Shown in pieces: positions 1,252-24,349 of a stretch of DNA of 25,057 nucleotides; positions within the stretch are counted from its first letter, which is position 1; each line of letters starts with the position of its first letter. The stretch lies in the IMG/VR virus record IMGVR_UViG_3300018039_000019, positions 1-25,057 of that record; one strand, given 5' to 3'. The DNA is from a virus. The notes beneath the pieces are model-generated. The model saw only the letters and a program-made list of their open reading frames with translations, searched no databases and was not told the origin of the DNA. Position numbers and translations under genes: made by a program.

Positions 1252-1267
1252 TTTGCGTTCGTCTTTT

Positions 1268-1612
1268 TCAGCTTCCTTTGCCACGGCGCTTACGCTTTCC
1301 CTTCTTCGCCGGAGGGCGACTCGGACGCGTTGTCGCTTCAGTTTCCTCAAAGCCCGCCGTGCCACCGACTGCGAACTCGGCGAAGTGGACGCGCATGATT
1401 CGATCGTTCTCGGGATTTGAGTAAAACCTGAGTGCTGCGAAAAATTCGTCGGACTCGTCGTCGTTTTCGGACAGGATGTTTGCGAGGCGAACAATCTTTG
1501 TTCGCTTCTCTCCGTTCTTGACGCCGAGAAGGAAACGTCTGAGGATTTTCTTTTTGTCGTCTTCGCTGAGCTCCCTGACAGGGAAATCAGGCTCAGTTTT
1601 TTCCGTTGCCAT
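1268..1612 (-). CDS. small hypothetical phage protein (114 aa), second of an overlapping pair
   Basis: Unrecognised. The protein starts with an acidic, Lys-rich helical region (ELSEDDKKKILRRFLLGVK) and ends in a very basic tail (PAKKGKRKRRGKGS). The ATG at 1612 lies inside the end of the preceding gene, 20 bases overlapping, and is preceded by GGAAGAG at good spacing, so independent or coupled initiation is likely. Size, pairing and overlap recall the tail-assembly-chaperone gene pairs of many tailed phages, but I see no sequence feature proving that. The frame relation to the upstream gene is +1 (equivalently -2), not -1, so the slippery site at 1596-1602 would not feed directly into this frame. 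Confidence 0.7.
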   Translation of the reverse strand: MATEKTEPDFPVRELSEDDKKKILRRFLLGVKNGEKRTKIVRLANILSENDDESDEFFAALRFYSNPENDRIMRVHFAEFAVGGTAGFEETEATTRPSRPPAKKGKRKRRGKGS

Positions 1613-1940
1613 TTGGCTTCTCTTCCACTGAAATGTTCTTGGTGGCTTTCCCTTCGAGGTCGCTCATGGCGGAAAGGAATTCTTCTTGCCCTTCGCCCTT
1701 CGGGTAGTGCCGAAAGCCGGGCGAGTTGCCGAGTGCGGAGTACAGCGGGTTGTCGGAGTTTTTACCCGCCAACCACCCGATGGTCGGACGCTTGCCGTTG
1801 AAGATCATCGCGTATCTGTCAACAACAGCACGGTCACCAACAATGGTAACAATTTTTTTAGCCGTGTCATAGCGAAATGCCATAATCACTTTGCCTTCGC
1901 GCAGCATATTCGATTCATCAATCATGAACGAGTAAAACAT
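1593..1940 (-). CDS. small hypothetical phage protein (115 aa), first of an overlapping pair
   Basis: Unrecognised. It starts at the ATG at 1940, which overlaps the TGA of the giant upstream gene (TGATG), so translation is probably coupled. A second ATG (residue 20, MAFRYDTAKKIVTIVGDRAV) could be used instead. The first ~75 residues look like a mixed alpha/beta fold (KKIVTIVGDRAVVDRYAMIF; PTIGWLAG), followed by a polar tail ending NGNGKN. The last three codons are GGA AAA AAC followed by TGA, which places a canonical -1 slippery heptamer (A_AAA_AAC) exactly in phase at the stop. Confidence 0.7.
   Translation of the reverse strand: MFYSFMIDESNMLREGKVIMAFRYDTAKKIVTIVGDRAVVDRYAMIFNGKRPTIGWLAGKNSDNPLYSALGNSPGFRHYPKGEGQEEFLSAMSDLEGKATKNISVEEKPNGNGKN
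1596..1602 (-). promoter_or_regulatory. candidate -1 ribosomal frameshift heptamer A_AAA_AAC
   Basis: On the minus strand the codons GGA (1604-1602), AAA (1601-1599) and AAC (1598-1596) precede TGA (1595-1593). This gives X_XXY_YYZ = A_AAA_AAC in the correct phase, directly before the stop of the 115-residue gene. A -1 slip would enter the frame that is open all the way to 102 and contains the leftmost protein. No downstream pseudoknot was identified by eye, and six-A runs also occur by chance. Confidence 0.35.
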
Positions 1941-4900
1941 CAGCTAGTCACCCCAATACGCCGTCCCTGCGTGAACCAGTTCTTCACTTCCTCAAGAGCG
2001 TCAGCACCACCCTTGAGCTGTTCGACAAACATGTCGTACTTACTGCCAATGTAATCCCAATACTGGTCCCAGTCATTAAAACCATAGGGAAGAACAGCAT
2101 TGGCTGGCATGTTTCGGCGCGCCATGTCAATCCAAGATTCTCGGCCTGCTGCCCGGAGAGCATCAGCGCGATCCAAAAGTTGCCGCACGGTACTCAGGAC
2201 TTCCTGACGATATTCCTCGGCAGCAGCAACACCTCGCCTGCTAACCAGATCATCATAAACTTCACGCATAGTCGTCGGAAGTTCCATATCCATCAACGTG
2301 TAAACCTCGTTCAGATAATGCGCGAGACTGGAACCTTCCCTATTGCCAACAAGCCGCTGGAACATGTCATCACCCGGATCCATGCCAGCGTTGTTCGCCC
2401 ACCATGTCGTGTAAGTCCTACCGAAGTCGATCGGCAAAACCACTGCACGCGGAACCGGAGGCGGCGGGTTCGGATTGTCTACCGTTGCCTGCGTCGCGGG
2501 CGGTGTGAAAATGTACCCAAGAGCGTTGCCGTCATGGCGGTCACCCATGTTCATCAGCCACGAAGCCACAAGGGCCTGAACTCTGGCATTCACGCCACGA
2601 TCCTCAGCCTGATCCAAATGGGCGCGATCAAAGTTTCGGGCTCCACGTGTGACTTCTTCACCAGCAGCCGCAGCGTTCGGCGCATACGGAACGACAGCGA
2701 CAGGCTGGCCTGCGCCATCCACCCCGTCCCAAGTCGCGCCATCAGGGCTCAGTCCAAGTGCCGCCAAAACGTTGTATCCGAGAACTTCGTCACCAATTGA
2801 GTCGATCTGATATGGCTCACCCTGATCGCCAGTAAGAGAGGCGCCTTGGCTCCTCTTCATCACGTATCCCTGACCGGTTGGCCGACCGTTCTCGTCACGA
2901 ACCAAGTAGATCTCTACGGTTCCCATCGCTCCCGGCTGCTCGATCGTGCGATAGTAGAAAGTATTGTTGGTGTCGGTCTCGCGCGTCGACGAGTTGTTGC
3001 GAATTGCCCAACCCCAATATTCGTTGGGAACTTCGCTCAACGAACCGCCAGCTCTCACATGATCTGCGGCCGCATTCTCGTCGGTGATGTCTGGGTTGAC
3101 GAAAGCGGCCGGGTACGATGCCTGACTGGGCCCAACCTCACTGAGACCACCAGCCATAGTGGGATGGTCGGACTGAGGCTCGGGACCGCTTCCGTTGAGT
3201 TTAAATTTCTTATGTAGTTTGTTTTCGTTGGTTAGAACGGCAGCAACCTCGTCAGGGTTGATGAAATCCTCTCCGCCGATCTGCTGCCTCTCGTCAAACG
3301 TCCAAATTCCTTCTGAAAATTCGGCGTTGTTTTGCATCCATGCACGAACGGCCTGCTTGCGGTCTTCTGAACTGTCACCAAACTCGAGAGCATAAATGAG
3401 TTCCAGATACTGTGGACCATAGATGCCCTCAGAAAGCGATTCATCCGCCAGAGCCTCAATAAGCTGTGCCTGCTCCTCGGTCTTGATGATCGAATCATTC
3501 CCAGCACGGAAATCCTGCAATTGATCTCTGGCCCTCTGCCACATCGATGTGACATCCGAACTACTTTCTGTCCTGTAACCGAAACGTCCCCAAACGTATG
3601 GCCCATCTACAAAGCCGGCGTGAACCTCAGCATCGGTGAAGCCTGCGCCCTGAGCGAAGTTCCAAACCCTGTAGTTGAACGCTGTTGCCAAACCACCACC
3701 ACGGGAAAGTGGCCTATTGGTTGGCGGCATAACAGATTTGCCGCCAAATTCATCAATGTAGACACGGAAACCCTCTGGTAGATCGTGGATCTTCTGGCGC
3801 ATATCTTGGCCGTTGTCCATCATGGCAATCGCCTGATAGACATCTTCGCTGATTACACCAAGGTTGCGAAGCTCGGGGGCTGAGTTTGAATAGGTGTCAA
3901 TGTACCGGCCTTCGCCATTAACCGACCTTTTCGTCCTCTGCAAAATCTCGCCGTTCTCGAGGTCGTGAAGATTGATTCTCAGCAGGTCCATCATCACCCG
4001 GTTCTCGCTCGGGTTAAAACGGCGTGTGAAATTGCCAACACGGATAAACGACCCCTGACCGTCGGAAGCCATAATTCTTCCGTTGACCTCAAGTTCCCCA
4101 CCGGTATAACCAGAGCCGACCGACACATCTTCTAGTTCAACTCTGAACGCGCGTCCGTCGGGTGCGACGTAAGAGAAGTTGAAGACGTCATCAGCCCAAT
4201 CCCGCAGGGCGCCCTCCGCCCCCTGTATGCGACTTTGCTGATCTTCCCACGCCATCAACTCTTGCTGGTAGATTTCAAATTCTTCTAAAGCAACGTTGTA
4301 CTGCTGCTCGGAATCTGGATCAAGCCAGTTTCCCTTGTCGTCGGTGTAATCATCCAAGTCAGGCTCGTCAACCTCATATGGCTCATCAAGCCAATTGCCC
4401 GGATCTAGGTCGCTGAAAGCATCTCGGGCGCCCCTGTTGAAGCTGGAGTTATCCCACGGCAAATCGTCAGGATCAAGCGGGTTGCCGTCATAATCACGCT
4501 GGCCAGAAACAGCACTCCGACGTCGACGCGCCCAAACATTTCTCAGTTTGTCAGTCAGCCTCTGACGAACATCATCATCAACGTCAGGAAGGTTGTCCGG
4601 CATATTCGGCACGCCAGCAGGAACCGGAGGAAGCGGCTGACCCGGAACATCGCGGGTAGCCAAGATGCCGCCCTGCCTGCGCTCAGCAATCGCCCGCTGA
4701 ACGCGCGCCAATTTTTCAGCCCTATTGTTCTCGCTCGGATTGTTGTCGCGAATCGAACGGGCGATCTGGTTCGCAAACCGTCGAATACGTTCGTCGTTGA
4801 CGCGTTCACGAGCAGGGTTAGGCGCGAAGCCGTTTCCGATCGCGTCAATGTTCGCAATAAAATTGTTCAACTCGACATCGCTCATCCGCAAAATATTTTC

Positions 4901-7900
4901 GGTTGAAGCGTTCAGGTAGAAGTCAACGTCATTCATGGCATCGTTGATGTCGAGCCACAGCTCGTCGAACTCTTCAAGAGTCGGCGCACCGGGGACTGCG
5001 CGAGCAGCAAACGCCTGAGGTTCAGCCCATGTGACATCCGCCAACATGCGATCAATCGCCGGACCCAACTGCCCGCTTTTATCCCCATGGTAAAGGTGTG
5101 CATTGAGGCGCTGAGCCATCTGAGAAAGTGCGCGATACCTGTTGGAGATATCCGTCAAAGTTGGTGCGTCATTGTCGCCGCGAAGCCAAGCGTCCACATC
5201 ATCAGTGATGTCGCCAATTTCTCGCAGGAAGCCATCACGGTCTCTTACGATCTCCCCATACGTTGCGCGGTTGAAGCCGAATCGTTCCTCAAAAGCGGCA
5301 TCGAGATCCATTTCTCGAATGCGTGGTATTTGGGCAAGGGAACGACCGTCCAAACTCACAGCGTCAGGAAGATTTTCTTCGTTGAGATCAGTGCCGAAAT
5401 TGAGACTATTAACCCGGTCCCGCAGACGACCGTGGTAATCCATCCACCCCGCCAGCGCCCTCTTGCGATCCTCGTCAGGAAGTGTCGCCCATCCAAGCAA
5501 ATCATTTTGAGTTGCGCGTCTCCGCATCCCTCCGGACACGAGCGCCTCTTGGATGCGCATCTTCGCGCGGTTTACCTGTGCAGCGTTGGAAGCGGCCGCT
5601 TCTTGTCGCGTCGGAGGTTCAGTCGAGTTTCGGGAGAGATACGCGTAACGCTGAAGAATCTGATCGAGACGATTCAGATCGCCTTCGGACATGGCACGCA
5701 TGAACTCTTCGTCCATGTTTTGCGCCCAACGCTGAAGCAGTGTCGGACTGTCATCGTCCGACTCACGCATCGCGACGGCAAGAATGTCGTCCCAACGGCG
5801 AGAATCGATCGCGTCGTCGATGTAAGCGAACTCCTCAGCAAAATCAGGATCAGTGTCAATGTGAACGTCATCACCTTCGACATCGTTCAAGCCGATTCGC
5901 GAAGACCTATCCTCACCACCGTCAGGCAAATCAGGACGTGAAGGAGACTCGAGTTTTTCTCGTCCAGCCTCGATCAACTCCGGCGGCGTACGAGGTCCAA
6001 CCTCATCACCGCGGTCGACAAGCTCATTGATACGTTCCTGAACGAGAGTGAGGTTGTCAGCCAGTCGGTCGTCGTCCTGATCCATGATCCGGGACTCGAT
6101 CGAATACAGCTCGCCGAGACCAAAATCCTCAACGTCTTGAGGTGCAAGCTCACGGTTGATGTCCAAGTCTCGTGCGCGGCGACGTTTCGCCTGACGCTCA
6201 GCAACAACCTCTTCAGTCGGACGACTTGAAACACGTCGCGACGGCGAGCTCCGAAGTTTTTCATCACGGATCTGATGTCGCGCAAGGCTTCGGCCACGAA
6301 CCTCATCACCTTCACGGGTCAGTTGCGCGTTCGGACCATCGCCATCATAGAAACGACCCCAACGTGATTCGTATGCGTCACGGCGACGTTGACGGGCAGC
6401 AGAATCCGGGAAGTCGGCACCGAAATCCCTGTCACGCCAATACGGACGGAACGGCAAACCCTCAGAACCAAAAGTGACATTCGCGTCAGTGACATCGGCC
6501 GTGCTGACCTCGACCGGTGCGCGATCCGGGTCCCTGCGACGCCTTTCCCTTTCGTATGCGAGGCGAGCCAAATTGTTGAGGTAACGCTCACGTTGCGCGG
6601 TGGACAGCGCGCCAAAATCCGCATCGTCGTAAGCGTCAACAAGCTGCCTTAGTTCACGGTCGCCCATGTCGGCGAAATCTTCATCTGCCATGTCGCGGAA
6701 CGCGTCACGGCCGTTGATCAAAACCTGCCGCTCGGCTTCCGGCGCATCCCGAGGCGCTTCAGGAACGTCCGCACGTGGCGCGTCAACATCTTCAGCCTCG
6801 ACACGATCCGGAATACCTTCACGCTGGCGGCGAGCAGCAGGACCAGCCGGAGGACGACGGCCCGGACGTTGACGTCGGGTTCTAGCAATTTCCTCTGGGG
6901 TGCCCGGACCGTCAATGATTCGCTCACCCTCGCGAGGTGTGGGCAGGCCACCTTCGGCTTCGACGATGTCTCGGGCGATCTCGCCGGCAACATCTTCAAT
7001 TTCGCGGTCTTCGTTTGCGTCGCCGGGGGCAGCATCCGGGTCTTTCTCAGGGAGATCTAAACCGCGACGCAGTTCGCGGTCGATACGACGTTGCAATTCA
7101 TCGGTGGCTTCATCACCATTCCGGGCACGCCTATCGCGCCGGTTTTCTGAAGTTCTACCCCCGCGCGAACGGCCATCCCGATCACGTAAAAGATCACGCG
7201 CAGTGTCGGACACTCGATCGATGATTTCGTCAACACGTTCGTCGCGCTCGGTTCCACGGCGACGTCCTCCACGTGCCGGACGGCCATCAGCGGCTGGCTG
7301 GTAATCGCCAACTAGACGGTCGACTGCCCTGCCGATCGCAGCGCGGGCACGACCACGCCAACCTTCCTGCCGCTCAGCTTCAGCACCAACCCGACTACGC
7401 CGCGGGGTTCCCGGTTCAGGCCGATCCCGGAGCTGCCTGTCGACCAGACCGCGATCAGCGGCCACGGTCAGGAGAAGCGGGTATCGCTGAAGGGTGTCTT
7501 GGAATTCGTTGGTGTTGATCAGCGAGTCAGGATTGTTGAGTAGTTCTTCGGCGGATTCGATTTCGTCCAACAGCGCTTCGTCGCTGAGATTGGCGGCAAT
7601 CTCCATCTGTTCGTTGATGCCGAGGTCGCGTCGACGTCCGGTCCTGTTGTCGCGCTGTACGGCACGCGGCTCGACACCTCGACGAGCGGCACGGCCACCC
7701 TGCGAGGGGGTCCGTCGGCCGCCGCCCATCAGGAAGTTGGCTTCTGGAAGATCTCTCCGCTCACGGTCTTCAGCTGCTGAACGTTCCAGCTGGAGAGCTC
7801 CAAGCCGATCCTGTAATAGTTGACGTCGACGGCCAAACGACAAATCGATGTTCTCGCCACGGTCCCGACGCCGCTCGTAATCCCGGTCCATCTGACGAAG

Positions 7901-9220
7901 CTGGCGCCTGACATCCTGAATGTCGTTAATAATGTCTTCTGTGGTTCGCTCGCTGGGGGCTTCGACCGTGCGAGGAATCGCATCGTTCCCTAAGTCGAAC
8001 GTCTCTTCCACATCAGTCTGATCATCGCGACGTCGGCGGTCAGCATCAGCACGTGGAGCATCGACATCAGTACGATCATCACGACGTGGCGGCGGCAAAA
8101 TGACATCGTTGCCCATGTCGACAGTCTCATCGCGGCGTGGGCGAGGACGGTCAGACGGCGCCTCGTCACGGCGACGCATTTCTTCTTCCAGTTCACGGCG
8201 ACGACGTTGGAAACGTTCCCAAACCTCGGCCGCGCGGCGGGCATCATCCCACCGGGATGGCTCACCACGACGCCTGCGGGTATCCCCAGCACGACGACGC
8301 TTCTGCCTATTGCGTTCACGCAACAGCATCTCAGCCACAAAACGAAGATCATCAACAGCGCCGCCAGTGCCACGGCCCGGGTCGTAGTCGCCAACCAAAA
8401 GCTCAACAAGATCGCGTGCCGCCCTCCGACGCCGTGCGATCTCCGCCTCAGTTCGTGCGCGGCGACGAATACGTCGTGCTTCTCGGCGAGTCTGCCGAGC
8501 AACCTGTCGCTGTCCACGCTCAGCCGCACGCTGAAGACGTCGAGTGTCACGTGCAGTTTCTCCAGCCTGCTGACCTGCGCGCATGATCGCGCGACCAATA
8601 CGTCGAGTCAAGCTGCCGCCACAACCGCGACCAAAACGGTCGGTGATCCGGCCGCCGTACATTGTGCCGTCAGGACAACGCCAGCCTCCACCCGGGCCGA
8701 TGTCACGGTCGAAAACAGCGCGAACTCCTTTGACTTGGAGTTCCAGCGTCGACATTTTTTGCTGCGTGTAATAGTGGTTCACCTTGAACTGGGCCACCGC
8801 AGCACGATCTTCCGGACTGAAATCGCTCAAAGGCTGGAAAATCACTGAAGGTCGCTGCCCGTTCTGGGCGCGAACACGATTCGAGATCACATGACGCGAT
8901 TTGGTTTGACCGAAGTCCTCCTCAGCCAGAAGGTCATCGCTGACAGTGTGCAGCAGCTTCAGGTAGTTCTCTCGCTGCAAAGTGTTCCGAAGAGCCAGCA
9001 CACTTTTAGTACTAAACACGACCGGGGTGTCGGTTACGAAGTTGGCGGCAAGACTTTCGACAGCATCATCCAACGTCTTTGCGTTCTCTGAAGCCCACTG
9101 CGCCCAACGCTGAGCACCCTTCGTTGCGCCAAAAAAGTCAATGGACGAATCGTCGTGGACGATGACGCTATGCGTATACCCAGAAATACAGTCTTTGACG
9201 ACAGTTATTTTCTTACTCAT
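1940..9220 (-). CDS. 2426-residue giant multidomain protein with C-terminal PI3/4-kinase-like domain
   Basis: Probable virion or ejected protein, inferred from its place in the head operon. Regions in order: an N-terminal domain (1-175); a Cys module (C182-P-D-G..YGGRITD..C200) shared with the neighbouring 682-residue protein; a highly charged Arg/Asp/Glu region (about 200-1050); several divergent helical segments of 45-60 residues (near 541, 853, 1033, 1176 and 1445); an acidic linker (about 1580-1660); a module near 1660-1885 ending in VHAGFVDGPYVWGRFGYR that faintly resembles GNAT-type folds; and a kinase-like domain (about 2090-2330). That domain shows K2122 (YVMKRS), candidate helix-C E2145, catalytic loop GDRHDGN (2226-2232) and IDFG with D2265. 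GDRHxxN plus IDFG is the signature of PI3/4-kinase-like enzymes; HipA-like kinases are the alternative. The substrate is unknown. The start overlaps the end of the upstream gene by 8 bases (ATGAGTAA), and the stop overlaps the next start. Confidence 0.9.
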   Translation of the reverse strand: MSKKITVVKDCISGYTHSVIVHDDSSIDFFGATKGAQRWAQWASENAKTLDDAVESLAANFVTDTPVVFSTKSVLALRNTLQRENYLKLLHTVSDDLLAEEDFGQTKSRHVISNRVRAQNGQRPSVIFQPLSDFSPEDRAAVAQFKVNHYYTQQKMSTLELQVKGVRAVFDRDIGPGGGWRCPDGTMYGGRITDRFGRGCGGSLTRRIGRAIMRAGQQAGETARDTRRLQRAAERGQRQVARQTRREARRIRRRARTEAEIARRRRAARDLVELLVGDYDPGRGTGGAVDDLRFVAEMLLRERNRQKRRRAGDTRRRRGEPSRWDDARRAAEVWERFQRRRRELEEEMRRRDEAPSDRPRPRRDETVDMGNDVILPPPRRDDRTDVDAPRADADRRRRDDQTDVEETFDLGNDAIPRTVEAPSERTTEDIINDIQDVRRQLRQMDRDYERRRDRGENIDLSFGRRRQLLQDRLGALQLERSAAEDRERRDLPEANFLMGGGRRTPSQGGRAARRGVEPRAVQRDNRTGRRRDLGINEQMEIAANLSDEALLDEIESAEELLNNPDSLINTNEFQDTLQRYPLLLTVAADRGLVDRQLRDRPEPGTPRRSRVGAEAERQEGWRGRARAAIGRAVDRLVGDYQPAADGRPARGGRRRGTERDERVDEIIDRVSDTARDLLRDRDGRSRGGRTSENRRDRRARNGDEATDELQRRIDRELRRGLDLPEKDPDAAPGDANEDREIEDVAGEIARDIVEAEGGLPTPREGERIIDGPGTPEEIARTRRQRPGRRPPAGPAARRQREGIPDRVEAEDVDAPRADVPEAPRDAPEAERQVLINGRDAFRDMADEDFADMGDRELRQLVDAYDDADFGALSTAQRERYLNNLARLAYERERRRRDPDRAPVEVSTADVTDANVTFGSEGLPFRPYWRDRDFGADFPDSAARQRRRDAYESRWGRFYDGDGPNAQLTREGDEVRGRSLARHQIRDEKLRSSPSRRVSSRPTEEVVAERQAKRRRARDLDINRELAPQDVEDFGLGELYSIESRIMDQDDDRLADNLTLVQERINELVDRGDEVGPRTPPELIEAGREKLESPSRPDLPDGGEDRSSRIGLNDVEGDDVHIDTDPDFAEEFAYIDDAIDSRRWDDILAVAMRESDDDSPTLLQRWAQNMDEEFMRAMSEGDLNRLDQILQRYAYLSRNSTEPPTRQEAAASNAAQVNRAKMRIQEALVSGGMRRRATQNDLLGWATLPDEDRKRALAGWMDYHGRLRDRVNSLNFGTDLNEENLPDAVSLDGRSLAQIPRIREMDLDAAFEERFGFNRATYGEIVRDRDGFLREIGDITDDVDAWLRGDNDAPTLTDISNRYRALSQMAQRLNAHLYHGDKSGQLGPAIDRMLADVTWAEPQAFAARAVPGAPTLEEFDELWLDINDAMNDVDFYLNASTENILRMSDVELNNFIANIDAIGNGFAPNPARERVNDERIRRFANQIARSIRDNNPSENNRAEKLARVQRAIAERRQGGILATRDVPGQPLPPVPAGVPNMPDNLPDVDDDVRQRLTDKLRNVWARRRRSAVSGQRDYDGNPLDPDDLPWDNSSFNRGARDAFSDLDPGNWLDEPYEVDEPDLDDYTDDKGNWLDPDSEQQYNVALEEFEIYQQELMAWEDQQSRIQGAEGALRDWADDVFNFSYVAPDGRAFRVELEDVSVGSGYTGGELEVNGRIMASDGQGSFIRVGNFTRRFNPSENRVMMDLLRINLHDLENGEILQRTKRSVNGEGRYIDTYSNSAPELRNLGVISEDVYQAIAMMDNGQDMRQKIHDLPEGFRVYIDEFGGKSVMPPTNRPLSRGGGLATAFNYRVWNFAQGAGFTDAEVHAGFVDGPYVWGRFGYRTESSSDVTSMWQRARDQLQDFRAGNDSIIKTEEQAQLIEALADESLSEGIYGPQYLELIYALEFGDSSEDRKQAVRAWMQNNAEFSEGIWTFDERQQIGGEDFINPDEVAAVLTNENKLHKKFKLNGSGPEPQSDHPTMAGGLSEVGPSQASYPAAFVNPDITDENAAADHVRAGGSLSEVPNEYWGWAIRNNSSTRETDTNNTFYYRTIEQPGAMGTVEIYLVRDENGRPTGQGYVMKRSQGASLTGDQGEPYQIDSIGDEVLGYNVLAALGLSPDGATWDGVDGAGQPVAVVPYAPNAAAAGEEVTRGARNFDRAHLDQAEDRGVNARVQALVASWLMNMGDRHDGNALGYIFTPPATQATVDNPNPPPPVPRAVVLPIDFGRTYTTWWANNAGMDPGDDMFQRLVGNREGSSLAHYLNEVYTLMDMELPTTMREVYDDLVSRRGVAAAEEYRQEVLSTVRQLLDRADALRAAGRESWIDMARRNMPANAVLPYGFNDWDQYWDYIGSKYDMFVEQLKGGADALEEVKNWFTQGRRIGVTS

Positions 9221-11261
9221 CGCCCTCTAGTCCAAGAATCTGGAGGATTGCGTCTTTTGAACGCTCCAAAGCTTCGAGGCGGGTGGAGAAAAGATCCTCC
9301 AAGATCGCGAGATGTCGCTCTTCGCCCTCAGAAAGTCTACCGTCAATAGAGAGCTTTTCACGGTAAAGAGTCCAGTCAAATTCTTGCGCTCTTTGCAGAA
9401 GCTGATCAACAACTTCAAGCATAAGTTCACGGTCTTCTTCATCGACAAAGTTCCGACCGTATGACTCCATAGTGTCTTGGAAAAAGTCTTCGGGTCCGAT
9501 GTTTCGGCGAAGCGCAAGCTCCGACTCGCTCAACCCGATAAGACCGGCAGGAGGGCCGATTGTCACGACACCATCAACCTCATCTCCCTGACGGGCAACA
9601 AGAATCGAAGCAGGTGAACGCTCCCGAGTGTCACTCAACCAGTCAGCAGTCTGGACCGCGAGGATGATCTCACCGGGAAGATCCTCCGGACCCATCTCCG
9701 GGTCGATCTCCACATCTTCGACGACCTGATCGGGAGAGCGGTAAAGGAACGGACGCTCATCTCCTTCGCCAGCAAACTTCACGGCCGGCGCCTGCACCCC
9801 AAACTCGCGCATCAGCTCCGAGGTGTAATGGGCAGACATGTGCTCAAAGGGTTCGTTGTTTTCTTTGAGCATGATGCGTCGCCCATCTTCACTCTCGAAA
9901 AGACGGAAACCGTCACGAAGCTCGCGATCCTCGTAAATGTCGGATCGTTCTAGAGCCTCAACAACAATCGCCGGAGCGAGATCCGCCAGAAGGCCACCCT
10001 TGTTGAGGTGTTCCACACCTTCTTTGAGCGACGTAATTCGTTCGCGAGAAGAAGGAGCAACACTGACAGCATCATCAGGCTCGGCAGCAGCTTCTGCTTC
10101 GTCGGGTTCGGCAACGTCTTCGGTTCGTTCATCTGGAGGATTGATGAAAGCATCGACCACCCACCTCGGTTTCCCCTTGCCCTCACCGGAAGACTGAACC
10201 TGTTCAGGGTTTTTGACGTCGCCGAAATCTTGCGAGAACTCGAAAGCGCCGTCTGACTCCTCGGCTAGGAATTTGAGACGCGCAGCCGGATCCGCGTCGA
10301 CGTCCAAATCCGCCGCAGTATTTACATCCTTACCCAGCTGGCGGCGCTCACCCGTGGAAAGATCACGGGTTCTATCTAAAGTCAATTGTACACCATTAGG
10401 CGTAACGTAAACCAGTGTCGTGACACCAGTGTTCGACAAGAAACCCAGCTCCTCGCCGCCAATCGCATTGGCGTTCCGGACAGACTGAACCCAAGCGGCC
10501 TCTTCCATGTTGCGGTTATCGGGAACGCCACGCAGCTCCGCCGACGAAACAACAGGCACCATCACGTAGCCGTCACGACGCACGAGAACAGCCGAAGCAG
10601 CATCCTGATTAGCCGCCGCCGAGACAGCATTCTTGATACTCGACGAACGTGCTTTCCCGTCAGCTTTACCGACAGGCGGAACATTCGCAGCGCGACTCGT
10701 CATCAACTGCACCTGCGAGGCAGACACAACACCACCAAGCCGCTCGCCTTCCCCGCCACCTTCAGGGCGAGATCCGATCGCACGGAGACCACGAGTTCTG
10801 AACACCGCCTGCGCCAAAGTTTCACGAAGCGAAGGGATGTCGAACAGCTGCTTGCCGCACGTAGAAAAGTTCGCGTCCGTAAAACGGCCACCAAACTGGA
10901 AACCTTCCGGACACCGATAGCCGCGTTCCGGCTTGCCAGAAACACGACCACGACCAGAGCCGCCGCCCGGCGTCAACGCGCGCGCAATGCCAGAACGGAC
11001 AGGACTTCGCAACGGGCTGACGTTCCCCGGAAGAAGCGTGGATCCGACAGCCTGAGCGGCCTGACCGGCACGGCTGCTTGAACCAACCGTCCCAACAACC
11101 TTTTCCGCGGAAGCCCGCAGCGCACCAGAGCGATACAGCATTCCCTTGTACTGAAGTAGCTCATCGGAACCGTCGAGCGGCTCGTAAAACAAATCAGTAG
11201 GGATCGCACCCCACAACTCTTTTACGTGGCGCGTATACGCGACCCGGACCGGACGGCTCAT
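9213..11261 (-). CDS. 682-residue structural-locus protein with C-terminal pseudokinase-like domain
   Basis: Probable virion-associated protein and paralogue of the giant protein downstream. Numbering is from the ATG at 11261, one base after the upstream stop; a start at 11285 would add 8 residues but overlap that gene. C117-P-E-G..FGGRFTD..C135 matches the giant protein's Cys module with identical 18-residue Cys spacing. The middle is Ala/Asp/Glu-rich. From about 450, RRIMLKENN (K466) and YTSELMREFG (E482) look like a kinase N-lobe. ADWLSDTRERSPASIL then aligns with ASWLMNMGDRHDGNAL of the giant, with catalytic-loop Asp, His and Asn replaced by Glu547, Ser549 and Ser552. VVTIGPPAG aligns with VVLPIDFGR, with DFG replaced by Pro570-Pro-Ala. 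So it is probably a catalytically dead kinase fold. It ends in a helical region of roughly 90 residues. The stop overlaps the giant gene's start. Confidence 0.87.
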   Translation of the reverse strand: MSRPVRVAYTRHVKELWGAIPTDLFYEPLDGSDELLQYKGMLYRSGALRASAEKVVGTVGSSSRAGQAAQAVGSTLLPGNVSPLRSPVRSGIARALTPGGGSGRGRVSGKPERGYRCPEGFQFGGRFTDANFSTCGKQLFDIPSLRETLAQAVFRTRGLRAIGSRPEGGGEGERLGGVVSASQVQLMTSRAANVPPVGKADGKARSSSIKNAVSAAANQDAASAVLVRRDGYVMVPVVSSAELRGVPDNRNMEEAAWVQSVRNANAIGGEELGFLSNTGVTTLVYVTPNGVQLTLDRTRDLSTGERRQLGKDVNTAADLDVDADPAARLKFLAEESDGAFEFSQDFGDVKNPEQVQSSGEGKGKPRWVVDAFINPPDERTEDVAEPDEAEAAAEPDDAVSVAPSSRERITSLKEGVEHLNKGGLLADLAPAIVVEALERSDIYEDRELRDGFRLFESEDGRRIMLKENNEPFEHMSAHYTSELMREFGVQAPAVKFAGEGDERPFLYRSPDQVVEDVEIDPEMGPEDLPGEIILAVQTADWLSDTRERSPASILVARQGDEVDGVVTIGPPAGLIGLSESELALRRNIGPEDFFQDTMESYGRNFVDEEDRELMLEVVDQLLQRAQEFDWTLYREKLSIDGRLSEGEERHLAILEDLFSTRLEALERSKDAILQILGLEGDE

Positions 11262-11262
11262 C

Positions 11263-11874
11263 TCAACACCCGCAGCCGCAGTCACCGTCGCCCTTCATGC
11301 GACCGTGCTCCACCCAGTTGCCGTTCTCGTCCTGACCTTCGTGGGCCCAGATCGAATCGTCGGCGAGATATTTCATGAACCCGGGCTCCGTCTCCATGAA
11401 GTCACCCAGAACTTTGTTTGCGTGATCCCAGTCAGCTTCTGTGATCACATAGTCGATCATGCCGCCGTCAGCATCTTTCTTTCCACGACGGAACCGGCGG
11501 GCGAGTCGACGCTCCCATTCCTTGTCAGTCCACAGCGAGCCGCGCGTACCTTTGCGAATTTTGCCGCGACAGTTCTTCATGCCCGGATGATGGCAACCCT
11601 CGTTCGGCCACAGGCCAGTCGTCTCGTGGTGCAGCCAAGCGCAGATCCGCTCCAGCGGGTACAGCTCAGGGTGGTTCGCCAGAATGCGACGGCACCGACG
11701 GAAGCCACCCGGCTTGCGCATGATTGGACGCCAGTATCGAAGGAGTCGCTCAAGGTTTCCTCGGCGCGGACCGTAACCACGCAGAATGTCACCGGAGATC
11801 CGCTCCTGCGGAAGGTCCAAAACAGATTGGAGTGCCGGCGGCGTGGTTGCCTTCTCTTCGATGTTGTCGTCCAT
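11263..11874 (-). CDS. Cys/His-rich hypothetical structural-locus protein (~203 aa)
   Basis: Function unknown. The central segment carries a likely metal-binding cluster: RRCRRI, then ICAWLHHETTG, then EGCHHPGMKNCRGK, giving four Cys and two HH pairs within about 45 residues. The C-terminus is GDGDCGCGC, a Cys-Gly tail like those of neighbouring proteins. I chose the ATG at 11874 because GAGGT lies just upstream, overlapping the stop of the preceding small ORF; a GTG at 11895 in the same frame would add seven residues (MDVDEVD). The gene ends one base before the preferred start of the 682-residue gene. It is probably a conserved virion or head-assembly component, inferred from position only. 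Confidence 0.8.
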   Translation of the reverse strand: MDDNIEEKATTPPALQSVLDLPQERISGDILRGYGPRRGNLERLLRYWRPIMRKPGGFRRCRRILANHPELYPLERICAWLHHETTGLWPNEGCHHPGMKNCRGKIRKGTRGSLWTDKEWERRLARRFRRGKKDADGGMIDYVITEADWDHANKVLGDFMETEPGFMKYLADDSIWAHEGQDENGNWVEHGRMKGDGDCGCGC

Positions 11875-11881
11875 ATCTACC

Positions 11882-12195
11882 TCATCCACATCCACAGTCA
11901 GCAGAGATCCCAGCGCTCAACCGCTGATACAGCCGAGTGCGAGACTCAGCGAACTTCTGTCGCAACATTCCGATGTCTGAACTGTCAAACGTCTGAAACG
12001 TGACTCGTTTTACGAACACGTTCGGACTGCGCCCGTAACCCAAATGTCGGGTCGGTGGAAGCTCTGCCCTGAAATGGTTTTTGCGGCTGACGTCTTCAGC
12101 GGAAGACGACCGAGCAGCAGAGTTCCATCTCCGTCTGTTCGCAACGCGAAGAGCCGCTTCCTGTCTATCCACTGCGACAAATCTTTCTGTGTCAC
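11882..12195 (-). CDS. small Cys-tailed ORF, apparently split between two frames
   Basis: Between the 571- and 203-residue genes both visible frames look partly coding. Frame A opens with GTG at 12195 (MTQKDLSQWIDRKRLFALRT...) and stops at 12010. Frame B is open from 12172 to 11882 and ends in KFAESRTRLYQRLSAGISAD plus CGCG. Splicing A to B by a -1 shift at the five-A run (12078-12082) gives one smooth protein of about 104 residues: LKTSAAK continuing into NHFRAELPPTRHLGYGRSP. The A run does not form a canonical slippery heptamer, so a sequencing or assembly indel, a true mutation, or a single-frame gene starting at 12172 all remain possible. The Cys-Gly tail matches its neighbours, which supports a real product in frame B. 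Confidence 0.45.
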
Positions 12196-12217: not shown

Positions 12218-13933
12218 TCAGAGGAACTTCTTCAATTCCTCTTCGGCAGTCAGCATCTCGAATTCGAGAAGATCCTTCATCAGCTGGGAATCCTGATCGG
12301 ACCCGACAACATCGGCCGACTTCTCAGCAGCCTGAGCCTCTTCCTGAATCTTCTTCGGCACCCAGTTCTCGGGGATCAAATCTTCCTGACCGAGGTCCAA
12401 GGCGCGCTTCATGATGTGGGCCTTCGCCTTTTCCTTGTCCTTAGCCCGGCCGTAAGCCTGAATCGCGTTACGAAGATCGGCGACATCCTTGATCGGGAAG
12501 GAGCCATCCTCCATCGCCATGCCTTCCTTCGCCATCTCCTCACGCTGGTCTTCCGAATAGGCGCGCTTCAACGCGAGCTCAGCAGCCTCAGCCTCAATGT
12601 CCTGAGCTTCGGCAGCGTCATACTCGTCGTAGCCAAGAACGTGGCCGTCGAGAGAGACAAACACGTCGTACGACTTCCCGTTCACCGCGTCGATCTCAAA
12701 CACCCAAGAATCGAAACCTTCGAAGATGTCAGAGTCGGCCTGAACGACCATGCCCTTAGTTTCGATTTCGCTTTCGACGACACCGAGAGCGATCTCCTCG
12801 GCAATCTTGATGCTCACGTACTTGGGGGCAGCGCTTTGGATTTCGCCTTCGAGAGACTTCTGACCCATCGCGGCTTCAATGTTCTCGGTGTTGAGACGGT
12901 GGAAGTTGAGAAGTTCGCCGGTGTCACCATCGGCGATGATCTCGATCGCGTGCCCGTCCTTCGACATGATGTCGACGACGAACAGGTTGCCGAAGTCATC
13001 TTCCTCGGTGCCGGTGTAGCCGGAGGCGAGCACCTTGCCGCCGAACATGTCGAGAGCCATGCCCTCAATGTCAGCGATGCCGGGCATGTTGCCCTCAGCG
13101 GCGCATCCACCCGGACAGTTCGCGCAAACCTCACGGTCGTTGGGGAAAGCCTTCCGCTCGAACTGGCAGATGTACGAGTCTTCGAGGTTGAGTTCGTCGG
13201 ACTTCTTGCCGGCGACGCGCTTGATGGCGCGCATGCGACCCTCCATGGTGGGGGCCATCGCGTTGCCCTGAGGCTCAGCGTCTTCCTCTTCCTCTTCCTC
13301 TTCTTCGTCGTCCTCTTCTGCCTCGACCTCGACCTCGACCATGGCCTTTTTCTTCATGGCCATTTCGCCGTCGCCGGACTCCTCGTCCTCTTCGTCCTCT
13401 TCCTCGTCGTCGCCGTCTTCAGGCATTTCGCCCTCGGGCTCCGCCTTTTTCTTCATGCCCTTTTCGTCTTCTTCCATGTCCTCGTCGTCGTCGGACTCTT
13501 CGTCCTCTTCGCCCTCGACCATGTCAGGGGCGTCGACCGGCATGGCCTTCTCCTCGACCTCGGTCTCGACAACATCGTCAACCTTGGCCTCAACCTCTTC
13601 GGCGACCTCTTCGGCGACCTCTTCGACGGTTTCTTCAGCGTCCTTACTCATGACGGCCATCGCGCCACAGGCGCCACAAACCTTGCCGCCCTTGAAGCCG
13701 CACTCTTTAGCTTCCAGTCCCTTGGCGCAGGAGACGACGTCACCGTCGGCGCTGACCTTGAGGATTGCCTTTTCTTCCTGCTGATCCATCTCTTCCGTCT
13801 CCTTGTACTGCATGGCTCGTGACAAGCAGCCCTTGGGATTGGAGCACCCGTCACATGGTTCCATCCGTTTCTGTCCGGAAGTCATGCAGAGGTACTTATT
13901 GCCGATTTTCTCTAAAGCTTTTTCTTCGCTCAT
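12218..13933 (-). CDS. acidic Cys-rich head-locus protein with tandem PepSY-like domains (571 aa)
   Basis: Encoded next to the prohead protease, so probably a capsid-assembly or scaffold-like factor (inference). Regions: cluster C16/C27/C30/C36 (CDGCSNPKGC); cluster C69/C78/C86/C89; an Asp/Glu-rich low-complexity stretch (about 98-220) with repeated MKKKA units; cluster C256/C270/C273/C277 (CQFERKAF...CANCPGGC); two PepSY-like units, about 285-345 (FVVDIMSKDGHAIEIIADGD) and 370-437 (WVFEIDAVNGKSYDVFVSLD, then GHVLGYDEYD); and a C-terminal segment 460-525 (MEDGSFPIKDVADLRNAIQA, then HIMKRALDLG) resembling a conserved phage domain I recall as DUF6582. PepSY domains are known from peptidase propeptides, where they can restrain proteases. 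Three four-Cys sets suggest zinc or Fe-S binding. It is not an obvious major capsid protein. The ribosome-binding site is weak (CTGGATAAC). Confidence 0.85.
   Translation of the reverse strand: MSEEKALEKIGNKYLCMTSGQKRMEPCDGCSNPKGCLSRAMQYKETEEMDQQEEKAILKVSADGDVVSCAKGLEAKECGFKGGKVCGACGAMAVMSKDAEETVEEVAEEVAEEVEAKVDDVVETEVEEKAMPVDAPDMVEGEEDEESDDDEDMEEDEKGMKKKAEPEGEMPEDGDDEEEDEEDEESGDGEMAMKKKAMVEVEVEAEEDDEEEEEEEEDAEPQGNAMAPTMEGRMRAIKRVAGKKSDELNLEDSYICQFERKAFPNDREVCANCPGGCAAEGNMPGIADIEGMALDMFGGKVLASGYTGTEEDDFGNLFVVDIMSKDGHAIEIIADGDTGELLNFHRLNTENIEAAMGQKSLEGEIQSAAPKYVSIKIAEEIALGVVESEIETKGMVVQADSDIFEGFDSWVFEIDAVNGKSYDVFVSLDGHVLGYDEYDAAEAQDIEAEAAELALKRAYSEDQREEMAKEGMAMEDGSFPIKDVADLRNAIQAYGRAKDKEKAKAHIMKRALDLGQEDLIPENWVPKKIQEEAQAAEKSADVVGSDQDSQLMKDLLEFEMLTAEEELKKFL
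13280..13630 (-). repeat. low-complexity DNA encoding Asp/Glu repeats
   Basis: Short tandem repeats inside the 571-residue gene: a CTTCCT-type run near 13280-13305, (CTCGAC)3 around 13321-13340, and a repeated CTCTTCGGCGAC unit around 13588-13625. On the coding strand they give poly-Glu, Glu-Val and VAEE repeats. Such tracts can expand or contract by replication slippage. On the plus strand the same DNA produces spurious poly-Ser and Leu/Phe-rich reading frames. Confidence 0.75.
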
Positions 13934-13987: not shown

Positions 13988-15682
13988 TCACTTGGCTGAA
14001 TAGTCATCAAATGACGACACAGCGTTACGTAGGGCGGATTGGAACATCTCAGCGTCACCAGCAACGGACTTTACTTCAATTCCACGCTCAGTGATGAACG
14101 TCTCAGCTCCGTAAAAATCCAACACCGGATCGATGTGCGATTTGAGAGCGAAAAGATCAGACATGGCGGCCTGAACTTCAAGCTCTTCGTTTTCTTTCAT
14201 TTCAATTTCAGCGCGTCCACCAGCGGCGATCACCTGCTGAAGGATCTCCATCGCCTGCTGCAACTTCTCAAGGTTGCTGGCGGAAATCACGCGGCCAGCC
14301 TTGACGTCGATGTCGTCTTCGATGGCGGACTTCATCATCTCGCGCAGACGGTCAAGGACACTCATCGGCCGCGAGCCACAGCCACCCTTCCCGCCGCATC
14401 CACATCCGCAGCCCTTTTCTTCCTCGGGCTCCTTGTAATCATCGTCACGCTCAGCGTCTCCGCCGTATCCGCCTTCCTCGTCGCCGTCCTCGATGACGGT
14501 GTAGAAGGTGCGGACTTGGACCTGTTCGGGCTCACCGAACATGAATTCGTTGTCGACGTAACGGAACGAAACGCGCATGGTCATCGGCTTGCCGTCGTGC
14601 ATGTGATCGAAGACCACTCGGCCGCCGCGAATTTCGCGGATCTTGGCAGGGCCGCCGAATCGCTTAGCGAGCTCGTCAGAAAGACGACGCATGATTGGAG
14701 GCATGTAGCCGAACTGAGGTGACCAGTCACCCTTTTCGTCGATGTTCTCGATGAGTTCCTGATCGATCTCGTCGAGGGCTTCGTCGATTTCTGCCGACTT
14801 ACCCTTCTTCTTCTCGTCGACCTTCTTCATGGCTTCCCGGACCACATTCTTCATGTAGTCCTCGCCACGACTCCCCACGGCCAGCCATTTGATCTGGGCG
14901 ATTACGCCGGGGAGGCGAAAGTCTCCCGCGTGCCGGGCCACCCACGCCTCGCGCAATTCGAGGGCGTTGATCTGATCCGGGGTGGTCGCCGTGCCATCCG
15001 CGTCGGCGATTTTGGTGAGAATGCTGTACTGGGCGTTGCCCTTGATGTTCCCGCCTTTTGCCCAAATCTCTGGATAGTCCTCTTTGATCCGTGCGGCAAA
15101 TTCCCTGTCAAACATCTTCCATTTGCTTTTACCGAAAGATGTAACTTCGTCGTCTTTTTCTTCCGACTTGATAGAAATGGTACCAGTCAACTGGTTCGCG
15201 CCATGCAGCACTGGAGAAACTTCGTAAAGTTCAACTTCCCGCAACAAATTAGCCTGACGCTGATTGTCGTAGATCGCATCGAGTGTCTTGTAGCCGATCG
15301 ACCACTCCTGCTCTTCACCATAGAAAGACACATTCGCGAACGCCTCGCGGCCCTTCTCGGACTTGAGGTTGAACTGGACCTTGGCGAAAAGGCCGCCAAT
15401 GCCTGCCGCTTTCATCTTTGCGGGCAGGCGACGATCCTCCGGCCCAACCTCGTAGATCTCAAGGACTTTGCCGATCGGGTGGTTCCAGTCGTGACCCCAA
15501 ACGACCCGCGGCTTGCGGCGCTTCAGACTTTCAGTAAAAGCTCCGGGCAGGACAATGTCACCGACGCTGTCCTTGTTCCCCACACCAGAAACGAAGCACT
15601 CGACGATACCCTCGGCCTCATCGACATTGATTTGGCCGCTAATCGCCTTGAATTCGGTCGCATGTTCGGTTGCTGTCGGCAT
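13988..15682 (-). CDS. HK97-family (S78) prohead protease with long C-terminal extension
   Basis: Serine protease that processes the capsid scaffold during head maturation. The N-terminal ~170 residues match the HK97 gp4/S78 family: GDIVLPGAFTESLKRRKPRV, catalytic His64 in WGHDWNHPIGK, catalytic Ser128 in EWSIGYKT, and LYEVSPVLHGANQLTG at 152-167. At 564 residues it is far longer than the usual ~200. The extension contains a domain at about 185-275 (GNIKGNAQYSILTKIADADG; REAWVARH; LPGVIAQIKWLA), a beta-rich segment (about 320-400), a GCGCGCGGKGGCG motif (424-436), a helical region (KAGRVISASNLEKLQQAMEI, 461-480) that could act as a fused scaffold, and an unknown C-terminus. The ATG at 15682 has GAGGTG six bases upstream, inside the CTCGCGAG repeat region. 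It lies between portal and the PepSY-like protein in the late operon. Confidence 0.93.
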   Translation of the reverse strand: MPTATEHATEFKAISGQINVDEAEGIVECFVSGVGNKDSVGDIVLPGAFTESLKRRKPRVVWGHDWNHPIGKVLEIYEVGPEDRRLPAKMKAAGIGGLFAKVQFNLKSEKGREAFANVSFYGEEQEWSIGYKTLDAIYDNQRQANLLREVELYEVSPVLHGANQLTGTISIKSEEKDDEVTSFGKSKWKMFDREFAARIKEDYPEIWAKGGNIKGNAQYSILTKIADADGTATTPDQINALELREAWVARHAGDFRLPGVIAQIKWLAVGSRGEDYMKNVVREAMKKVDEKKKGKSAEIDEALDEIDQELIENIDEKGDWSPQFGYMPPIMRRLSDELAKRFGGPAKIREIRGGRVVFDHMHDGKPMTMRVSFRYVDNEFMFGEPEQVQVRTFYTVIEDGDEEGGYGGDAERDDDYKEPEEEKGCGCGCGGKGGCGSRPMSVLDRLREMMKSAIEDDIDVKAGRVISASNLEKLQQAMEILQQVIAAGGRAEIEMKENEELEVQAAMSDLFALKSHIDPVLDFYGAETFITERGIEVKSVAGDAEMFQSALRNAVSSFDDYSAK

Positions 15683-18242: not shown

Positions 18243-19547
18243 ATGGCCGACTGGCAAAAAGTTCTCGAATATCTGGAGCCCAAAGAGGCCCTCTTCTGCC
18301 CAGAAGAGTCCTCGGTAACACAAAAAGTCTTCCTGAGAACGAACGCACTAGAAGCACTTTTTGGAGGTGCGGCAGGCGGCGGAAAAAGCTCCGCCCTACT
18401 CATGGCCGCCCTCCAATACGTTGATGTCCCCAACTACAGCGCCATCCTGTTCAGGCGCACATACGCCGACCTCGCCCTACCCGGCGCGATCATGGACCGT
18501 TTCATCAACTGGATGGCCCCATACGACGACGTACGCTGGAACTCCAACAACTACACCGCGCAATTCCCGTCAGGCGCACGAATCTCGTTCGGATACCTCA
18601 ACAACTCGCAGGACTACCTCCGCTACAAGGGTGCCGAGTTCCAGTTCATCGGAATGGACGAGGTCACGGAAATTAGAGAATCCGACTACCGCTACCTGTT
18701 CTCCCGTCTGCGTCGCCCAGCATCCGGACCGCTCGCCAAAGTCCCACTCCGAATGCGGGCCGCATCCAACCCAGCACCCAACTGGGTTCGCCAGCGATTC
18801 ATCGTTGAAGGTAAAACTTCGGGCCGAATTTTCGTCCCATCAAAACTGACCGACAACCCGGGCATCGACGCCGCCTCATACCGACAGTCACTCCAAGCCC
18901 TCGACCCAGTCGAGCGACGTCGGCTCGAAGAAGGCGACTGGTGGTCGACGACACTCGGCACAATGTTTGAGCGTGAAGGATTCGTCCTTCTTGACCCAAT
19001 CGAAATACCAGAAGTTACGTCCATGGTGCGAGCCGTCAGATTCTGGGACTGTGCAGCAACCGAACCGTCAGCCTCAAATCCCGACCCCGACTGGACTGTC
19101 GGAACCCTAATGCTGTTCGATCAGGGTGTCGCATACATATTAGATGTAAAGAAAGCGCGCGTCCGCGGAGAGCACGTCGAACACCTCATCGCGCAGACCG
19201 CCTATGAAGACGGACGCCACGTGGCCGTGCGGATGGAGCAGGAGCCCGGATCGTCGGGCAAAGCCCTCATCGACCAGTACGCCCGCAACGTACTTCCCGG
19301 CTACGACTTCGCTGGAATTCGCGCGACCGGAGACAAAGTGACGCGCGCACGCCCATTCGCGGCCGCGGTCGCAAACGGAAACGTTCGTGTTGTGCGCGGT
19401 CCATGGCTCACCGACTGGCTCGATGAGTTCTCCTCATTCCCAGAAGCTGCCAACCATGACGACCAAGTCGACTCGGCCGTTGGGGCGTTCACACACTTGA
19501 CCGGACTCGGGTTGCCGCAGAGGAAACGTGCCGCTATCATTCTCTGA
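18243..19547 (+). CDS. terL: terminase large subunit
   Basis: ATP-driven DNA packaging motor and genome-cutting nuclease. The N-terminal ATPase has Walker A GGAAGGGKSS (41-50), ILFRRTYADL after it, and Walker B FQFIGMDE (133-140). The C-terminal RNase H-like nuclease shows D269 (RFWDCAATEP), acidic residues E332/E334 (VRMEQEPGSSGK) and D406/D407/D410 (NHDDQVDSAVGAF). At 434 residues it is compact but complete. GGAGG precedes the ATG at six bases. No small terminase subunit is seen beside it. Placement is unusual: it is divergent from portal and heads the plus-strand recombination genes, so packaging and recombination functions may share a transcript. Confidence 0.96.
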   Translation: MADWQKVLEYLEPKEALFCPEESSVTQKVFLRTNALEALFGGAAGGGKSSALLMAALQYVDVPNYSAILFRRTYADLALPGAIMDRFINWMAPYDDVRWNSNNYTAQFPSGARISFGYLNNSQDYLRYKGAEFQFIGMDEVTEIRESDYRYLFSRLRRPASGPLAKVPLRMRAASNPAPNWVRQRFIVEGKTSGRIFVPSKLTDNPGIDAASYRQSLQALDPVERRRLEEGDWWSTTLGTMFEREGFVLLDPIEIPEVTSMVRAVRFWDCAATEPSASNPDPDWTVGTLMLFDQGVAYILDVKKARVRGEHVEHLIAQTAYEDGRHVAVRMEQEPGSSGKALIDQYARNVLPGYDFAGIRATGDKVTRARPFAAAVANGNVRVVRGPWLTDWLDEFSSFPEAANHDDQVDSAVGAFTHLTGLGLPQRKRAAIIL

Positions 19548-19574: not shown

Positions 19575-20084
19575 ATGAATACTGAATACGAGCAATGGCT
19601 TGCCGAGCATCGGCAGGCCATCATGAAGCTTTCCGATCTCATCTCGGCCGTTCGCAGCAGTGACCTCACAATAGAAGAGGTCGGCGATGTTGTCGCCGCC
19701 TTCGGCGAGTTCAAGACGAGTATCGGCATCCTCTACAACGAGATGCTGGCCGTCATGGGCAAACGCATGGGTGACGCCGATCTTGTCGTTCTTGAGAGCG
19801 GCGCGACTATCGAAAGAAAGTTCGCCAAGGATCGCAAAGCGTGGCAACACAAAGATCTTGCGGCCGCGGTGGCCGACCGTATCGACAAGATGTCGATCGA
19901 CATGGACACCGGCGAGCGGCTACTGTCGTCCAGAGAGGTCGCAGAGAAAATGCTCGATTTCGTCCAGCCGTCGTACTGGCGTGTGGGCGCTCTCGACAAG
20001 ATCGGAATCAGCGCAGATGACTTCTGCGAGTCCGGAGAAACCAAAGAAAGCATCGTATTGAGAAAGCCGAAAGGTGATAACTGA
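19575..20084 (+). CDS. hypothetical phage protein (169 aa) preceding the annealing protein
   Basis: Unrecognised. It is mostly helical: an N-terminal part (EYEQWLAEHRQAIMKLSDLI), a central helical region (VVAAFGEFKTSIGILYNEML), a polar segment (IERKFAKDRKAWQHKDLAAA) and a C-terminal part with PSYWRVGALDKIG. A strong Shine-Dalgarno (CTAAGGAGAG) precedes the ATG. Its stop overlaps the start of the Rad52-like gene (TGATG), so the two are translationally coupled, and a role with the annealing protein or its nuclease is plausible but unproven. No catalytic motif is visible. Confidence 0.8.
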   Translation: MNTEYEQWLAEHRQAIMKLSDLISAVRSSDLTIEEVGDVVAAFGEFKTSIGILYNEMLAVMGKRMGDADLVVLESGATIERKFAKDRKAWQHKDLAAAVADRIDKMSIDMDTGERLLSSREVAEKMLDFVQPSYWRVGALDKIGISADDFCESGETKESIVLRKPKGDN

Positions 20085-24283: not shown

Positions 24284-24312
24284 TTGCAAATCCGGAAAAT
24301 CGCCGGTAAGAT
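24284..24312 (+). promoter_or_regulatory. sigma-70-type promoter candidate before the deacetylase-like gene
   Basis: TTGCAA (24284-24289), a 17-base spacer, and TAAGAT (24307-24312) lie in the only real gap (68 bases) downstream of the ParB-like gene. Transcription would start near 24319, about 30 bases before the ATG at 24350. This suggests the deacetylase-like gene can be expressed separately from the recombination cassette. Confidence 0.5.
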
Positions 24313-24349
24313 AAAAGCAACACATCAACTACTACCTAAGGAGGCAAAT

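Follow-up and report, generated by a model that had tools for sequence, protein, structure and literature searches.

The C-terminal 386 residues of a giant phage protein are predicted, from sequence conservation and a structural model, to form an atypical kinase of the PI3/4K-HipA-CotH-CtkA group with a complete active site. The protein is encoded in the 25,057-nucleotide stretch of the IMG/VR virus record IMGVR_UViG_3300018039_000019 that was analysed here as a whole (hereafter the window), and in related phages the kinase end and the small partner gene behind it were shown to be swapped as one block. The features that carry the argument are summarized in Table 1; related loci are referred to by L numbers.

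Table 1. Features of the window, with predicted domains and motifs of the giant protein
Feature	Position	Strand	Remarks
115-aa partner gene	1593..1940	minus	directly behind the kinase domain
Giant ORF, 2426 aa	1940..9220	minus	ATG start
Predicted kinase domain, 386 aa (giant residues ~2041-2426)	1943..3100	minus	
Predicted metal-binding motif PIDFG (residues 2263-2267)	2420..2434	minus	
Predicted catalytic loop GDRHDGN (residues 2226-2232)	2525..2545	minus	
Predicted helix-C Glu, E2145	2786..2788	minus	31/37 domains
Predicted ATP-site Lys, K2122	2855..2857	minus	36/37 domains, 21/21 of alignment A7
Giant residues 1681-2040	3101..4180	minus	second region conserved with locus L013
Giant residues 221-1680	4181..8560	minus	Arg/Asp-rich, poorly conserved linker or filament region
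Giant N-terminal domain (residues 1-218)	8567..9220	minus	kept in syntenic giants
Cys module GPGGGWRCPDGTMYGGRITDRFGRGCGG (giant residues ~174-202)		minus	within the N-terminal domain
690-aa gene with Cys module	9213..11285	minus	directly precedes the giant gene
Predicted pseudokinase domain (C-terminal 279 residues of the 690-aa protein)	9216..10052	minus	
210-aa head-locus protein	11263..11895	minus	protease-fused in related phages
571-aa head-locus protein	12218..13933	minus	syntenic conservation
Head maturation protease, Peptidase_S78	13988..15682	minus	
Portal-MuF fusion	15764..18004	minus	
Terminase large subunit (TerL)	18243..19547	plus	divergent from the head genes

Giant gene and kinase domain

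Both ends of the giant gene are translationally coupled to a neighbour: the start ATG overlaps the stop of the 690-aa gene by 8 nt (gATGAGTAA), and the stop TGA overlaps the ATG of the 115-aa gene (TGATG). The 690-aa protein also has the Cys module of the N-terminal domain, as do the tandem kinase proteins of related phages at their N-termini; the module is a candidate for a shared targeting or packaging function. Arginine makes up 22.6% of residues 221-830, and family searches with the middle domain (residues 1681-2040) gave no match.

Relatives of the kinase domain were fetched from 2.9 million viral contigs. Alignment A7, with 21 domain sequences of 14-84% pairwise identity (mean 27%), has just nine invariant columns: A11, G18, G57, K82, G116, D187, N192, P223 and D225 in domain numbering. 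Of these, K82, D187, N192 and D225 are the predicted catalytic set K2122, D2227, N2232 and D2265. Because the four named positions coincide with invariant columns (all four among nine of 386, odds of about 1e-7 if columns are taken as equal), the catalytic motif is not a matter of chance; the helix-C glutamate is E in 18 of the 21 sequences. In a larger set of 37 domains, collected partly with profiles from motif-bearing sequences and hence favouring intact members, the lysine is present in 36 and the catalytic Asp in 37; the Asn and the DxG Asp are each found in 35. A pseudokinase, a partial match and an ORF truncated by the contig end account for the missing residues, so that all 34 full-length kinase-type domains have the K/D/N/D set intact, with D2227, N2232 and D2265 invariant. 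L013, L046 and L014 were obtained by synteny and plain BLAST.

The domain from the window alone had no sequence match in Pfam, PHROG, NCBIfam, phmmer or PDB searches, and the PF00454 and HipA Pfam profiles did not match it at E<=5. A2-type relatives (L008, L011 and L012) match PF00454 (2.7e-5) and HipA_2 (1.1e-4), both under the curated cut-offs, and the A2 domain is joined to the window type by hhalign (E 1.8e-7). A 613-aa relative (L086:484-2322) clears the PF00454 gathering score (30.6 vs 27.1), and in the PDB the A7 profile picks up PI4K-beta (1.6e-4) and CtkA (2.8e-4). AlphaFold2 modelled the domain with low confidence from the single sequence (pLDDT 41) and as a kinase fold from the 21-row alignment (pLDDT 80.5, pTM 0.81), with helices beyond the DxG motif up to domain residue 378. 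Foldseek of the model against the PDB alone found nothing at E<=0.001 (best 3.3e-3, PI3K); the fold assignment is based on the ranking of matches and on the VIA-align alignment, not on Foldseek PDB E-values. All 50 of the 50 PDB matches listed by VIA-align are atypical kinases, among them PI4KIIalpha (Z 13.6, 255 residues, rmsd 4.8), CotH (13.0), CtkA (12.6), HipA (11.0), actin-fragmin kinase (10.5), Vps34 (10.5), PI4KIIIbeta (10.1) and HipT (9.1-10.4). As the HipA scores tie with those of other atypical kinases, the likeness to HipA is not specific.

PI4KIIalpha, CtkA, CotH, HipA and actin-fragmin kinase resemble the phage domain in fold and catalytic motifs, but share 8-14% sequence identity with it and occur in another context. 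By the curated cut-offs the domain belongs to none of these families; it lies between PI4K, HipA/CtkA, CotH and actin-fragmin kinase. It is presumably catalytically active. An earlier note, made from the letters of the sequence, had the ORF, its residue numbering, K2122, GDRHDGN and IDFG correct, with these three motifs all inside 2200-2960; its domain limits (residues ~2090-2330) take in the motifs, and the whole domain is wider (Table 1). It had named two contrary outcomes, a non-kinase fold and homologues without conserved GDRHxxN and IDFG; the predicted fold is that of a bilobal kinase, and the homologues keep GDRHxxN and the IDxG Asp. Its label, PI3/4-kinase-like, holds for the fold and for the motifs, since the ordered Lys, GDRHxxN and IDFG of PI3/4-kinases are all present, and falls short at the curated PF00454 cut-off, which the window domain misses.

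Head-gene neighbourhood

The kinase domain as query retrieved only two near-identical contigs, and the 690-aa neighbour as query led to 32 viral loci, with a giant gene behind the 690-aa homologue wherever the contig permits the check. About 220 N-terminal residues are common to these giants, and their ends differ. The C-termini of L013 (31%, E 7e-29) and L046 (33%, E 1e-38) match the window domain, that of L014 does so weakly (E 6e-7), and in L008, L011 and L012 the related A2 domain is internal, not at the protein end. In two of the latter loci (L008:17902-19233 and L012:17002-18381), where the giant has a further C-terminal domain after the internal kinase, there is an additional gene of 146-152 aa ahead of a partner-like gene of 111-115 aa. 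A search with the Cys module led to a second phage group (L077-L099), whose loci hold three or four genes in tandem; all of these encode the Cys module and most also a kinase domain.

The minus-strand genes of the window are ordered portal-MuF, head protease, 571 aa, 210 aa, 690 aa, giant and 115 aa. In the syntenic L014 the gene for the major capsid protein (MCP) follows the giant gene at a distance of about 3 kb, and in L088 it follows the kinase array; in related loci the giant gene sits between the head protease and the MCP. The earlier note's placement of the giant protein in a structural locus is borne out by the portal-MuF, S78-type protease and TerL genes of the window, together with the MCP gene of L014. 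Large ORFs stand upstream of the 690-aa homologue in distant relatives (L023:640-8955, 2771 aa; L019:3533-8779, 1748 aa; L024:3-5858, 1951 aa), and one of them may hold further head-locus modules.

The C-terminus of the 690-aa protein aligns with the kinase domain (hhalign E 8e-15, probability 98%, 265 columns). Among 22 aligned homologues, 8 have the Lys and 6 have D at the position of the catalytic Asp; Ser mostly takes the place of the Asn, and the DxG motif is lost, while D552 and R556 are invariant. Judged by this alignment, the degenerate copy, which is kept in more than 20 related loci, is a conserved pseudokinase of the head locus. The 690-aa protein probably has a structural or docking part.

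The nearest cultured portal proteins (40-44% over the aligned half) come from Gordonia, Streptomyces and Brevibacterium phages, and a scan of bacterial genomes with the portal protein found one short contig (66%), binned with an Acidimicrobiia genome; together these make an actinobacterial host likely. The same kind of scan with the Cys module gave no match. In cultured phages, searches with the giant protein, the 690-aa protein and the array kinases turned up no homologue (two matches were at chance level), and profiles detected no kinase in the head loci of GMA6, Gilgamesh, Chidiebere and Cantare. Two cultured portal relatives have an ADP-ribosyltransferase toxin gene between the portal and the head protease or capsid genes, and toxins at this same place support the view of the region as an effector slot.

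Several further observations concern these loci. In Streptomyces phage Gilgamesh a hypothetical gene of 4624 aa without a kinase match (L107:17697-31571) closely follows the portal-MuF gene. The more distant giants of L020, L022, L023, L028, L053 and L094 are without the kinase; their unrelated end domains look ADP-ribosyltransferase-like by eye (RG...GxGEY/NF), and the small genes behind them form another family, with a (Y/F)PPF/L motif. Pfam and PHROGs confirmed this resemblance neither for these ends nor for that of L017, which was suspected in the same way. Elsewhere in the window, a Rad52-family annealing protein and an overlapping PD-(D/E)XK nuclease form a recombination pair (20084-21504, plus strand). 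There are also a free-standing ParB_N domain protein (23514-24281, plus strand) and a histone-deacetylase-like gene, unusual for a phage, that leaves the window end (24284-25057, plus strand; PF00850, E 2.6e-19).

Partner genes and cassette exchange

Homologues of the 115-aa protein are encoded behind the kinase giants of L013 and L046. A small ORF (89-152 aa, at -13 to +27 nt) directly follows 35 of 35 kinase genes examined. None of 25 pseudokinase genes has one, and among other genes in these loci the figure is 41 of 145; the genes counted are related and hence not independent, so that Fisher values overstate the significance. Proteins with the N-terminal module and no kinase also have a small gene behind them (24 of 24), of other families, so that a small gene per se is not specific to kinases. 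The type of partner tracks the type of kinase, the 613-, NKG, DRT, TGG and NRG types having a partner family each. Common descent by itself could account for the link between the 115-aa partner and the window-type kinase.

A single superfamily of all partner families was considered; hhalign connects only three of them. Searches of the partner families for a known fold found none, and the 115-aa protein has no Pfam match at E<=0.01 and no recognisable HTH antitoxin of the HipB kind. Because the families are mostly dissimilar and without known fold, the designation 'inhibitor' is derived from position and joint exchange. Behind the partner, a 114-aa gene (1268-1612, minus strand) resembles the gene of 77-87 aa that ends the kinase arrays of the second phage group. 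A 464-aa ORF (100-1494, minus strand) with paired Cys motifs (GCTGSHRGPDGQLMPC) and matches to DUF3721 and DUF5824 is conserved behind the giant gene in related loci, and its true start is probably internal.

Block exchange was observed among relatives whose kinase genes stand in tandem, and the window is not one of the cases. The DNA of L085 and L086 is 88% identical over 8.9 kb, up to 8936/9019. There, some 100 residues short of the kinase domain, the second tandem gene loses its similarity, which returns (~90%) at 10466 in both, directly after the partner gene. Identity inside the block is 29% for the kinases and 30% for the partners, compared with 93% for the N-terminal part of the same protein and 98% for the partner of the neighbouring pair outside it. 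The same block limits were found in L084/L088, L082/L077 and L082/L083, and G+C in the four measured blocks is 43-45% vs about 50% in the flank. Just before the switch, seven proteins with three kinase types have the motif AGRSA(S/T)R(K/R)P..(D/N)D(V/I)PEP. Exchange as a block, which is how polymorphic toxins and their immunity genes behave in bacterial weapons, argues that kinase and partner work as a pair. Polymorphic toxin systems are marked by a conserved N-terminus with an exchangeable C-terminal enzymatic domain, as found in the relatives, and by a specific downstream small gene that travels with the toxin domain, as found here.

Function and comparison with known systems

We consider the chances evenly balanced that the giant protein is a modular effector, in which a kinase with an inhibitor or chaperone partner is packaged, delivered and modifies a host protein. 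We infer inhibition by the partner, packaging, delivery and substrate as follows. The N-terminal and middle parts of the giant protein would belong to the head-gene programme, and the protein would be made late. The 115-aa partner would most likely be an inhibitor (immunity protein) or holding chaperone, with the kinase kept off in the virion-building cell. The kinase protein would enter the head via its N-terminal parts and then, with the DNA, the next host, where the partner-free kinase would phosphorylate or otherwise nucleotide-modify a host protein; this would help takeover or disable defence. The earlier note had named packaging and delivery into the host, or modification of capsid proteins, as possibilities; the pseudokinase copy, the partner gene and the block exchange, all unseen at that time, shift the weight from capsid modification to an effector/partner module. 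More tentatively, and with some doubt, the loci may represent an undescribed polymorphic effector system of tailed phages, in which injected PI3/4K-HipA kinases sit on virion proteins with a common N-terminal Cys module, have an immunity or chaperone protein each, are exchanged between phages as cassettes, number up to three or four genes per genome, dock on a pseudokinase virion protein and phosphorylate host targets.

A somewhat unlikely alternative is an unpackaged superinfection-exclusion or abortive-infection module, a HipBST-like kinase toxin with its antitoxin, made late from the head operon and acting against rival phages in the producing cell. HipA, HipT and CtkA are among the closest folds, the pairing of kinase and partner is similar to that of toxin and antitoxin, the activity of a late head gene might be confined to the producing cell, and a role of the exclusion kind has been suggested for the HipA-like kinase that the 'Gratiaviridae' encode between portal and MCP (PMC8008677). 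However, the kinases end very large proteins with a head-locus N-terminal module, which a cytoplasmic toxin would not need, and the antitoxin search described above recognised no HTH protein of the HipB kind. That the kinase serves morphogenesis, phosphorylating head proteins or the small partner during assembly, with the partner as substrate or loading factor, is unlikely. Such a role would suit the location of the gene between protease and MCP and the conserved pseudokinase paralogue encoded by the structural-looking gene in front, and joint exchange would also fit a kinase and its substrate; yet whole kinase types are quickly swapped among near-identical phages with unchanged head genes, unlike an assembly enzyme. 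Because several related giants are without kinase and end in unrelated domains, the kinase is not needed for assembly.

Kinase-like folds also serve AMPylation (SelO) and glutamylation. It is quite improbable that the fold is used here for such other chemistry or for nucleotide binding only: the substrate site is not readable from the sequence, but the usual order of Lys, DRHxxN and IDxG is kept and the PDB matches listed are kinases. That the motif arose by chance in a disordered C-terminus, with no kinase at all, is hardly credible; the empty Pfam, PHROG, NCBIfam and PDB sequence searches with the window domain alone would agree with it, and, short of an experimental structure, it is refuted by the invariant catalytic set, the significant profile matches and the predicted fold.

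Nearest in logic to the proposed effector are the MuF polymorphic toxins of temperate phages, in which a protein of the head/packaging module has a variable C-terminal toxin domain and a small ORF behind it, absent without the toxin domain, is the presumed immunity gene (PMC5576092). Both the variable C-terminal domain in the head module and the small ORF behind it have their counterparts here. Those toxins carry MuF themselves, whereas the giant protein has none and MuF is on the portal protein; no kinase is named in the main text of that paper (PMC5576092), the phages described here have several tandem paralogous cassettes and a conserved pseudokinase paralogue, and the hosts are apparently Actinomycetota instead of Firmicutes. 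Nearest in enzyme and place is the 'Gratiaviridae' kinase, which is linked to an AAA ATPase and a glycosyltransferase, and for which a cognate small gene, cassette exchange and a giant protein are not described (PMC8008677). Three proteins of uncultured Caudovirales in BFVD (A0A6J5MJB0, A0A6J5NE85 and A0A6J5SGR0; 614, 955 and 973 aa) have the same fold (Foldseek E 9e-10 to 8e-6) and lengths that match relatives found here; A0A6J5MJB0 was automatically named a PI3/4-kinase-domain protein and the other two are uncharacterised.

The polyvalent-protein kinases likewise are kinase domains in large, presumably injected phage proteins, but are described as a truncated Ser/Thr/Tyr-kinase group without the C-terminal subdomain, found in elements of Verrucomicrobia-Chlamydia and Bacteroidetes (PMC5512222). 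T4 Alt, an ADP-ribosyltransferase packaged with the head and delivered with the DNA (PMC5512222), follows the same delivery logic as proposed here for a kinase. In HipA/HipT systems an HTH antitoxin adjoins the kinase, whereas here a partner gene without Pfam match lies behind it. A search of freely accessible literature yielded no account of phage head loci in which PI3/4K-like kinases have exchangeable partners.

Few phage protein kinases are characterised, two having been counted, from T7-like phages and 933W (PMC8008677), and here a whole kinase family with conserved active sites is found in head-gene loci, with the pseudokinase paralogue, which lacks a partner, as a natural negative control. 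The cassette exchange points to arms-race selection. If the kinases are injected, they would join the ADP-ribosyltransferases as another class of enzymes delivered by virions, and the kinase/partner pairs would suit ordinary toxin/immunity assays. The pairs also offer a handle on what uncultured phages, probably of Actinomycetota, carry into the cell in their virions.
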